From: Microscillaceae bacterium
GTDB taxonomy: Bacteria > Bacteroidota > Bacteroidia > Cytophagales > Microscillaceae
Direction of reading: 5' to 3'
DNA length: 64,000 nt
Assembly (NCBI GenBank): GCA_025054775.1
Contig: JANWZA010000062.1
Span: 1 to 64,000, forward strand
Shown here: piece by piece, positions 35,243-39,038 of the stretch
Layout: each line of letters opens with the position of its first letter
Numbering within the stretch: the stretch's first letter is position 1
Translations under genes and position numbers: made by a program
The notes under the pieces: model-generated
Databases searched by the model: none
Told to the model about the DNA's origin: nothing
The model's input: the letters and a program-made list of their open reading frames with translations, nothing else

Positions 35243-36059
35243 TTAATTTTCTATGGTTAAGTCTGTATGTTTCGCGATTTCTGCGTTTGACAAAGAAGTT
35301 TGCAATAAATTTTTAGCAATTTCTCTTTTTTCTTCCAATTTGGCTGTATAACGTACACTATTTTCGATACGTCTGTTCTCTTGAAAATGGTCATACCTTT
35401 TCTTATCCTCCTCTGTTAAACTTTCATAATGTAGCTTTTCTTTTGCTTTGTCCAAGCCTTTTGCCTTAAAAGTATCTTTTACTCGCTATTTTTGAGAAAA
35501 TAAACCCACTCGTCAAGGGTATCTTTGGCCACATTATTGAAATTATTTCTTTCAGAATGTAGTATTTTGGAAAAATATCCGATACTTTTTCAACCTTGAA
35601 CTCCTGTTTTTGTAGCGTGGTAGGTAGTAAAATATCCTTTTCGTGCAAACCAATAAATTCGCCTTTGTATTCATAAACATAGTCTTTACCTTGCCCTAAA
35701 CCGAAATAGACAATATTTATGGAATAAATTTTTTTTGATAGTTCCATACGGTTACCTTCTTTGATGTATTCTGTAACTAATTTAGACACACCAAAAAGCA
35801 TGCGTTGAAAGTAATCAATTTCAGAATCATTTTGTATTTCTACTAACATCAACTCGTTATTTTGGCCTTTTACCAAAATATCCACTCGGTTATATTTGTC
35901 GTATTCGTCTTGTTTGTTGCCTTCGCTTTCTAAAATACTTTCTATCGTTACATCAAAACACAATAATTTGGACAAAAAGCCTTCTAAAATTTCAAAGTTG
36001 GCTTTGTGCCGAAGTAATTTTTTCAATGTCCAATCAAAGCGAATGAGTTTTCTTTGTAT
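35243..36059 (-). pseudogene. Broken Rpn-family PD-(D/E)XK nuclease/transposase gene
   Basis: Three reading frames must be joined. Frame 1 gives IRFDWTLKKLLRHKANFEIL, then RVDILVKGQNNELMLVEIQN (the D-x(n)-ExQ nuclease core) and FQRMLFGVSKLVTEYI. After KYYILKE the family sequence moves to another frame (RNNFNNVAKDTLDEWVYFLK) and then a third (KDTFKAKGLDKAKEKLHYES to NAEIAKHTDLTIEN). The natural start codon seems lost: the ATG expected before QRKLIRFDW reads ATA (36057-36059). The 35466-36026 and 35243-35455 open frames are fragments of this one gene. Intact relatives (PF12784-like) are recombination-promoting nucleases spread as transposable genes. This copy is recent enough to read easily but inactive as written. 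Confidence 0.85.
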
Positions 36060-37912: not shown

Positions 37913-37943
37913 AAAAAAAATTGCCCCCGTTTGCTTGAGGGCA
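37913..37943 (-). terminator. Rho-independent terminator of the transaldolase-CBS gene
   Basis: On the minus strand TGCCCTC and GGGGGCA (37937-37943 and 37922-37928; one G-T pair) enclose an 8-base loop and are followed by eight T (37920-37913). It lies 66 bases past the stop of the minus-strand transaldolase gene. Confidence 0.8.
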
Positions 37944-38009
37944 AAAGTTTTATTCAAATGAATAAATGCGAAATTTATTGTTTTTTATACCTTTATTAAG
38001 TTTCTAGTT

Positions 38010-39038
38010 TTACCCTATTAGGTTCATTTTCACAAAATCCTGTACATCAAGCATACCTATAGGTTTTTGGTCTTTTACTACAATAATGTTGTCAATACTT
38101 TTTTGCTTAAATATTTTTACTGCCTCTTCTAACAACGCTTCAGGGTGGATAGTAATAGGTAATTGCTTTTTTACGAACTTATTCATTTTTTTGTTTAGTA
38201 AGGCTTTACCATTTTCGGCTAAATTCCTTCTCAAATCGCCGTCAGTAAAAATTCCTACCAAGTTCCCTTCGTCATCAACAATAGAAACAGCCCCTAATCC
38301 CGACTCTGTCATTTGGTGAAGTGCCTCAAAAACGGTGTCCTCTGTTTTTACTACGGGATTAAATTCACTAATTACTTCTTGCACACGCATAGTAATCAAG
38401 CGTGTATGTTCTACAAATTGGGCTGTACCTATGGCAGTAAGGCTGTTCTCGTTCAACTTTTTGAGAACATTCCAAGGCACGGTAATCGTATGCACACCTG
38501 CTAAAATGGCAGTTCTTACATGTTCAGCATGACGCACAGAAGAGAACATAACTTTGGTAGAATACCCATAATAATTAACGGCTTTTACGCACTGCTCTAT
38601 CAATGCAATAGCATCGTGGCCTTGGTCTTGCAGGCGCCCTACCAAAGGGCAGACATAATCAGCACCTGCTTGCATAGCAAGGTAGGCTTGGTTAAGCGTA
38701 TAGACCAAGTGAATGTTTACACGCATTCCCTTGTCTTTGAGTATTTTACACGCCTTAAGAGCAATATTAGATGCGGGAATTTTGAAAACAGTTTTTTCTT
38801 TTTCCAAACCTAAGGCTAAAATCCGCTCTGCCTCAGCGACAATCTCTTCAGCTGTATCGCCAAGTGCTTCTACTTGTAAGATAGGTACTAGTTTGGCAAG
38901 TTCTATAATCGCTCCGTCTATATCGGTAATGCCTTGACGGTGCATAAAAGTAGGAGTGGTAGTTAAACCCGTAAGAATACCCCAATCAAAGGCTTCTTTA
39001 ATTTCTTTGAGGTCAGCAGAGTCTAAATATAATTCCAT
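38010..39038 (-). CDS. Transaldolase/fructose-6-phosphate aldolase-like enzyme fused to two CBS domains
   Basis: A 342-residue fusion. Residues 1 to about 220 form a compact TalC/FSA-type aldolase: MELYLDSADLKEIKEAFDWG, GLTTTPTFM, the Schiff-base lysine K86 in TVFKIPAS, and NIHLVYTLNQAYLAMQAGAD with YVCPLVGRLQDQG. From about 228 to the end there is a CBS pair (VSIVDDEGNLVGIFTDGDLR and IDNIIVVKDQKPIGMLDVQD) like that of arabinose-5-phosphate isomerase KdsD. CBS pairs bind adenine nucleotides, so allosteric control of pentose-phosphate flux is the natural inference. I start at 39038; the 12 codons before are not family sequence. It has its own terminator and stands alone. Confidence 0.9.
   Translation of the reverse strand: MELYLDSADLKEIKEAFDWGILTGLTTTPTFMHRQGITDIDGAIIELAKLVPILQVEALGDTAEEIVAEAERILALGLEKEKTVFKIPASNIALKACKILKDKGMRVNIHLVYTLNQAYLAMQAGADYVCPLVGRLQDQGHDAIALIEQCVKAVNYYGYSTKVMFSSVRHAEHVRTAILAGVHTITVPWNVLKKLNENSLTAIGTAQFVEHTRLITMRVQEVISEFNPVVKTEDTVFEALHQMTESGLGAVSIVDDEGNLVGIFTDGDLRRNLAENGKALLNKKMNKFVKKQLPITIHPEALLEEAVKIFKQKSIDNIIVVKDQKPIGMLDVQDFVKMNLIG

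Follow-up and report, generated by a model that had tools for sequence, protein, structure and literature searches.

Most Gram-negative bacteria depend on Kdo for their lipopolysaccharide, and the precursor of this sugar is D-arabinose 5-phosphate (A5P). PDB entry 3upb carries the title of a transaldolase with covalently bound A5P, and A5P is cited as an inhibitor of transaldolase in PMC7895386. Two further studies describe Escherichia coli FsaA as an enzyme that prefers glycolaldehyde as donor and glyceraldehyde 3-phosphate as acceptor (kcat 16 per s and KM 0.2 mM, as cited in PMC6298115), that yields A5P from these two compounds (PMC6298115, PMC9947464), and that can be used as an A5P aldolase without ribose 5-phosphate as a by-product (PMC9947464). 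As described in PMC3962226, the choice of donor in FsaA is controlled by position 129, replacement of a Phe by Tyr makes TalB an aldolase, and two arginines and one serine form the phosphate site of the latter. E. coli TCM15 is a laboratory strain in which both kdsD and gutQ are deleted (PMC11301363). A transaldolase/FSA protein with CBS domains tied to Kdo or A5P was not found among the open-licence PMC matches listed.

The locus described here lies in a window of 64,000 nucleotides (the whole stretch of DNA analysed, positions 1 to 64,000 of contig JANWZA010000062.1) from a Microscillaceae bacterium. Its minus strand encodes, in a single open frame at 38010–39038 (ATG at 39038, stop codon at 38010–38012), a protein of 342 amino acids in which a transaldolase-type barrel is fused to a CBS pair. 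The automatic ORF listing starts the frame upstream, at TTG 39074; ATG 39038 is taken as the correct start because the MELYLDS start is common to the relatives, in which the length is also conserved. The barrel comprises residues 1–214 (38397–39038, minus strand) and belongs to the TAL_FSA superfamily (PF00923 at residues 3–210, E 6.6e-40; 137.7 bits against a gathering cut-off of 27). The CBS pair covers about residues 218–338 (38025–38387, minus strand), where PF00571 matches in two stretches (E 9.3e-21). Pfam gives TAL_FSA and CBS only, and a SIS catalytic domain was not found in the protein. Built from the sequences of the window protein and of 49 relatives, an AlphaFold2 model of the fusion reaches a mean pLDDT of 92.5 and a pTM of 0.72, and its barrel matches Bacillus subtilis transaldolase 3r8r (Z 29.1, rmsd 1.7, 211 residues aligned) and E. 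coli FsaA 1l6w (Z 27.1). The TAL/FSA-type domain named in the preliminary description of this DNA is confirmed.

The surroundings of the gene in the window consist of genes for a peroxiredoxin, a HupE/UreJ-like protein and a TPR histidine kinase. The preliminary description held that the gene stands alone and has a clear terminator. It does stand alone in the window, and kdsA lies near it in most of the best 80 named loci (see below). The stem-loop at 37921–37944 (minus strand) is a plausible intrinsic terminator but is not above chance, as a simple scan found one stem-loop where shuffled sequences gave 1.1. Elsewhere in the window, a PD-(D/E)XK transposase-like ORF at 35243–36026 (minus strand), with PDDEXK_2 on a 186-residue part and then a separate 70-residue ORF, is probably a broken copy.

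The fusion recurs widely. A search of 57 relatives, the window's genome among them, without any sequence pattern found full-length copies in 28, and the other 27 copies are 53–73% identical to the window protein. A scan of named genomes (GTDB) with the patterns MELYLDS[VA] and LTTTPTFM provided further loci, the best 80 of which were kept and encode fusions of 335–344 amino acids. Mis-assembly, which the preliminary description had named as something that would refute the observation, is ruled out by these full-length copies. Hosts among the best 80 include Thermonema, Thermoflexibacter, Raineya, Labilibacter, Xanthocytophaga and many metagenome-assembled genomes (MAGs) of Bacteroidota, as well as Thermodesulfobacteriota, Chlorobiota, Ignavibacteriota, MAGs labelled Deltaproteobacteria and one labelled Gammaproteobacteria; many of these loci are MAG contigs, the phylum labels of which may suffer from binning. 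Two Desulfobacteraceae fusions share 67% identity with the window protein, a value that matches several members of the window's own family and exceeds that of order members outside the family (53–66%), which suggests horizontal spread.

The barrel departs from known fructose-6-phosphate aldolases and TalC transaldolases at its active site. Three fusions score 162.1, 167.5 and 169.5 bits on the FSA/TalC equivalog model (TIGR00875; cut-off 245.95), on which the stand-alone TalC of the same genome scores 287.5 bits. The residues that go with this model (Asn28, Thr109, and Tyr131 or Phe132) are Thr, His and Leu throughout an alignment of 81 fusions, 80 of them from the best-80 pattern scan, with FsaA and three stand-alone TalCs. 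Thr28 (codon 38955–38957, minus strand, as for all codons given here) occupies the position of Asn28 of FsaA and TalC in all 81 sequences; its invariance in the best 80 loci is partly selected because one scan pattern contains this residue, and it is also present in all 28 relatives found without a pattern. His110 (38709–38711) replaces the threonine of FsaA (Thr109) and the TalCs, and Leu132 (38643–38645) replaces Tyr131 of FsaA and the phenylalanine of the TalCs, each in 81/81. The position of Ala129 in FsaA, which is Ser in TalC, is Cys in 75 and Thr in 6 of the aligned fusions.

Other residues are retained. Lys86 (38781–38783), which the preliminary description identified as the Schiff-base lysine, aligns with K85 of FsaA and is Lys in all 81 fusions, as are Asp6, Thr26, Arg135 and Ser167 in their positions. 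Glu57 (38868–38870) is likewise invariant and of the TalC type (Gln59 in FsaA), and Arg169 is kept in 81/81 as in the TalCs. The MFSSVR stretch, which includes Phe165, is present in 78 of the best 80 fusions. The roles described in PMC3962226 were mapped onto the fusion by alignment and general knowledge of the family. Together, the changed residues and the retention of Lys86 and the phosphate-site residues suggest, at the level of sequence, that the pocket is altered on its donor side and retained on its phosphate side.

The CBS pair resembles that of the KdsD-type A5P isomerases, as the preliminary description had proposed. NCBIfam models for KpsF, KdsD and GutQ are the top matches of this part, and the KpsF/KdsD model TIGR00393 is matched only at its positions 154–267 (64 bits against a cut-off of 203.7). 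When modelled alone (pLDDT 91.2), the CBS part has as its nearest solved structures 4o9k (Z 18.8), 3k2v (Z 17.9) and 3fna (Z 17.4), all of them CBS pairs of A5P isomerases; the fourth is CcpN (Z 16.7), with which the 3fna match is in effect tied. In fold the pair lies somewhat closer to those of A5P isomerases, at Z 18.8, than to those with bound AMP, at Z 16.6; the PDB titles of several similarly folded CBS pairs name AMP or ATP. In sequence searches, 4o9k is the first CBS match of the whole fusion and the second match of the CBS part, behind a protein with many CBS domains.

That the CBS pair is of the KdsD kind is borne out by the fold and by the motif TDGDxRR. TDGDLRR (38226–38246, minus strand) is common to the fusion and KdsD and also occurs in the 4o9k chain; TDGDxRR is present in 23/23 KdsD, 25/27 fusion and 1/12 other CBS pairs. 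Among the best 80 fusions, 62 have TDGDxRR, 17 TDGGLRR and one (L102) TDGVLRR. The 18 variant loci fall between L099 and L130, with 10 titled Flavobacteriales; there, the sensor may have changed or have lost its ligand. The TDGDxRR of KdsD and the fusion also occurs in a different CBS-containing ORF (L181, G044:C19:163900-165100). In a CBS tree of 62 rows made by a quick method, fusion and KdsD pairs form two separate groups, and a constraint that unites the two against the 12 other CBS pairs is not rejected (p-AU 0.445); they may or may not be sisters, and direct acquisition of the pair from KdsD is a possibility that the tree neither rejects nor supports. CMP-Kdo is presumably the ligand of 4o9k and 3k2v, the latter of which names no ligand in its title. 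By analogy with KdsD, the CBS pair of the fusion would act as a feedback sensor for a ligand of the Kdo pathway, most likely CMP-Kdo.

The fusion and KdsD replace each other across genomes. A search for TIGR00393 (KpsF/KdsD) in the same 57 relatives, own genome included, found the fusion in 28, KdsD over the cut-off in 19 and both in none. Matches of the KpsF model in the 28 fusion relatives cover just the CBS end, and no KpsF-like A5P isomerase was found in them at E 1e-5 with all candidates scored, although a remote SIS protein or an unrelated isomerase may still exist there. KdsA is borne by 47 relatives (over the cut-off in 45, in pieces in 2), among which 28 have the fusion, 18 have KdsD, and a single one, a 79% complete genome, has neither.

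The same pattern is seen in a sample of the phylum (392 genomes, at least 90% completeness requested, first 5 or 6 candidates per genome scored), which contains the fusion in 7 genomes, KdsA in 282 (E 1e-50) and KdsD in 275 (E 1e-40; 270 over the cut-off). KdsD is missing from 11 of the 282 KdsA genomes; seven of these are all seven fusion genomes, and four (G079, G251, G318, G334) are without the fusion. None of the 271 genomes with both KdsA and KdsD has the fusion. The exclusion has a Fisher p of 1.3e-11, or of 4e-10 when the count of KdsD is restricted to matches over the cut-off, both with kinship ignored; seven families that contain both fusion and KdsD members serve as a rough guard against the effect of kinship. 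The exclusion is not absolute, as 3 of 50 other named fusion genomes (loci L064–L113 of the best 80) also have KdsD. Thermonema rossianum is an example of an isolate with the fusion only.

Gene neighbourhoods point in the same direction. Upstream of the fusion and on the same strand, kdsA lies within 400 bp in 54 of the best 80 loci and farther away in 2; the examined flank is without kdsA in 20 and cut by a contig end in 4. Downstream on the same strand, a KdsC-like HAD phosphatase is found in 42 of the 80 (within 400 bp in 39), counts that may be low because the ORFs of the flanks were called in a simple way, and KdsB and a WaaA-like gene are nearby in 9 and 8 loci, respectively. For KdsD itself, kdsA is within 400 bp in 16 and within 3 kb in 49 of 56 pairs, which were picked by hand from visible rows rather than at random. 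In the window's genome the fusion is not near kdsA, and the Kdo genes are scattered (KdsA on C55, KdsB on C15, WaaA on C7, KdsC-like on C18). Of the 57 relatives, 54 have KdsB and 52 have WaaA; all 28 fusion relatives have KdsB and 26 have WaaA, which a profile search did not find in the other 2.

Some neighbourhoods contain additional genes. A LegC/DegT-type aminotransferase is encoded near the fusion in 5 and an Fe-alcohol dehydrogenase in 4 of the best 80 loci, and both genes adjoin the kdsA of genome G042, which is of the fusion-associated type (these observations concern L096 5568-7850, L134, L080, L116, L122, L083 and L154 5763-7860). They resemble the 8-amino-Kdo genes of Shewanella (KdnA/KdnB). 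Seven relatives (G021, G023, G027, G039, G045, G054, G056) have KdsB and WaaA and are without KdsA over the cut-off, KdsD and the fusion; a distant, NeuB-like KdsA-type synthase adjoins kdsB in one of them (G056:C3) and in the fusion genome G041 (G041:C58). Perhaps another 3-deoxy-ulosonate replaces Kdo here.

By its neighbours and its pattern of presence and absence, the fusion belongs with Kdo synthesis. It probably makes A5P for KdsA (Kdo 8-phosphate synthase), as a non-orthologous replacement of KdsD, and would thus supply the sugar phosphate to a synthase with which it is co-inherited. In the proposed mechanism, the phosphate of A5P would occupy the old Arg135/Ser167/Arg169 site, with its C1 at Lys86. 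A5P is the fructose 6-phosphate chain without C1, with identical stereocentres, so its C1 can sit at this lysine. The donor side of the pocket would be rebuilt by Thr28, His110, Cys130, Leu132 and Phe165, with Glu57, Lys86 and His110 acting as acid, base and electrophile, and a pentose 5-phosphate would be converted to A5P in the pocket, starting either from ribulose 5-phosphate or from ribose 5-phosphate through C2 epimerisation. This in-pocket formation of A5P from ribulose or ribose 5-phosphate is put forward with a little less than even confidence; the leaning towards it comes from the invariant His and Leu, which replace residues that glycolaldehyde addition by FsaA keeps unchanged.

The main rival assigns the same role, A5P for KdsA, to an aldol synthesis in which a glycolaldehyde enamine on Lys86 would add to glyceraldehyde 3-phosphate. 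FsaA gives A5P from these very substrates in vitro, as PMC6298115 and PMC9947464 describe. A closed C1 pocket would also favour a two-carbon donor. FsaA, however, manages this reaction with ordinary residues and needs no others, so an aldol synthesis leaves unexplained why Thr is invariably replaced by His and Tyr by Leu. To our knowledge, moreover, these bacteria have no steady source of glycolaldehyde, which counts against this route, and it is considered rather unlikely.

The KdsA proteins that accompany the fusion are themselves distinctive. The KdsA of the window's genome scores 342.1 bits on the Kdo 8-phosphate synthase model (TIGR01362), the cut-off of which is 314, and in the 50 named fusion genomes KdsA is over the cut-off in 46, just under it in 1, in pieces in 2 and represented by a distant relative only in 1. 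A KdsA tree of 79 rows was made by a quick method; its 58 fusion rows are the KdsA from fusion flanks and the unlinked KdsA of the window's genome, and other unlinked KdsA, 3 short rows, 5 duplicate loci and locus L050 are outside it. KdsA linked to the fusion form a deep clade: a long branch with SH-aLRT 100 separates 58/58 fusion-associated KdsA and that of G042 from 19 KdsA of KdsD genomes (E. coli included) and one second copy, in a tree that carries a long-branch warning (L160 with E. coli). At L160 (1302-4265, in G470, a MAG labelled Gammaproteobacteria), an open frame of 988 residues contains a second KdsA, which is of the other type.

In the phylum sample, KdsA of the fusion type occurs in eight genomes with at least 535 bits, the next type reaching 342. 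Seven are the fusion genomes, all of which have it with at least 540 bits, and the eighth is G042, where it is the only KdsA over the cut-off and is accompanied by KdsD without the fusion. This combination suggests that fusion-type KdsA uses A5P, the product of KdsD. Both systems occur together in G457 and G463; each of these genomes has two types of KdsA, one copy apiece, and the fusion-type one adjoins the fusion.

Fusion-type KdsA differs from other KdsA in conserved motifs (KANRSS to KDNRSS, CRQT to CMQT, KKGQF to KHGQF), and the KdsC-like phosphatases score only 42–52 bits against a KdsC cut-off of 208; on this basis the product may be a variant sugar. The second rival builds on these features and on the 8-amino-Kdo-like aminotransferase and Fe-alcohol dehydrogenase genes beside some fusion loci and the KdsA of G042: the fusion would form another aldose phosphate, to be processed by the divergent KdsA and KdsC-like proteins of a Kdo-variant module. 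It is improbable, given that the KdsA of the window's genome exceeds the Kdo 8-phosphate synthase cut-off (342 against 314 bits), that KdsB and WaaA are above theirs, and that G042 pairs the same KdsA type with KdsD, the product of which is A5P. The reading of the preliminary description, an ordinary transaldolase or fructose-6-phosphate aldolase that serves the pentose phosphate pathway and is subject to energy control by a nucleotide-sensing CBS pair, agrees with the TAL_FSA fold, the Schiff-base lysine and the AMP- or ATP-bound CBS pairs of similar fold, but is rejected as highly improbable because the genome has a separate TalC over the equivalog cut-off that the fusion itself does not reach, because the fusion is without equivalents of Asn28, Thr109 and Tyr/Phe131, and because its linkage to Kdo genes and its exclusion match the pattern of KdsD.

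A broader, tentative proposal follows the predicted synthesis of A5P by the fusion through evolution. A second and unrelated A5P enzyme, an aldose-ketose isomerase or C2 epimerase derived from the Schiff-base and acid-base machinery of the transaldolase barrel, may have evolved on this barrel, equipped with a KdsD-type sensor for CMP-Kdo and with its own KdsA clade. It may have spread through Bacteroidota, Thermodesulfobacteriota, Chlorobiota, Ignavibacteriota and other groups, and may have taken the place of KdsD more than once, on several occasions. The fusion genomes appear to be without an A5P-making step, a gap that the fusion would fill. If the prediction of A5P synthesis holds, a family whose nearest profile is that of fructose-6-phosphate aldolase would receive a new label, a natural example of an aldolase scaffold rebuilt for A5P would be available, and two unrelated catalysts of one step would share one kind of regulatory domain.

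Compared with known systems, the fusion shares with TalC/FSA (TIGR00875; 3r8r, 1l6w) the barrel fold, Lys86, Asp6, Thr26, Glu57 in its TalC form, Arg135 and Ser167; it differs in its score (162 bits against a cut-off of 246), its added CBS pair, its gene context and four positions of the pocket (Asn28 to Thr, Thr109 to His, Tyr131/Phe to Leu, and Ala129/Ser to Cys or Thr). The engineered use of FsaA as an A5P aldolase relies on the same scaffold and has A5P as its product, whereas the protein used there (PMC6298115, PMC9947464) is E. coli FsaA without a CBS pair or a link to Kdo. Francisella tularensis transaldolase 3upb has the same fold and, by its title, covalently bound A5P, which is an inhibitor there (as cited in PMC7895386) and the proposed product in the fusion. 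With KdsD/KpsF/GutQ (TIGR00393), the fusion has in common the CBS pair (in fold and in the TDGDxRR motif), the slot beside kdsA and the presumed product A5P; the catalytic domain is of the SIS type in those enzymes, whereas that of the fusion has an unrelated fold.
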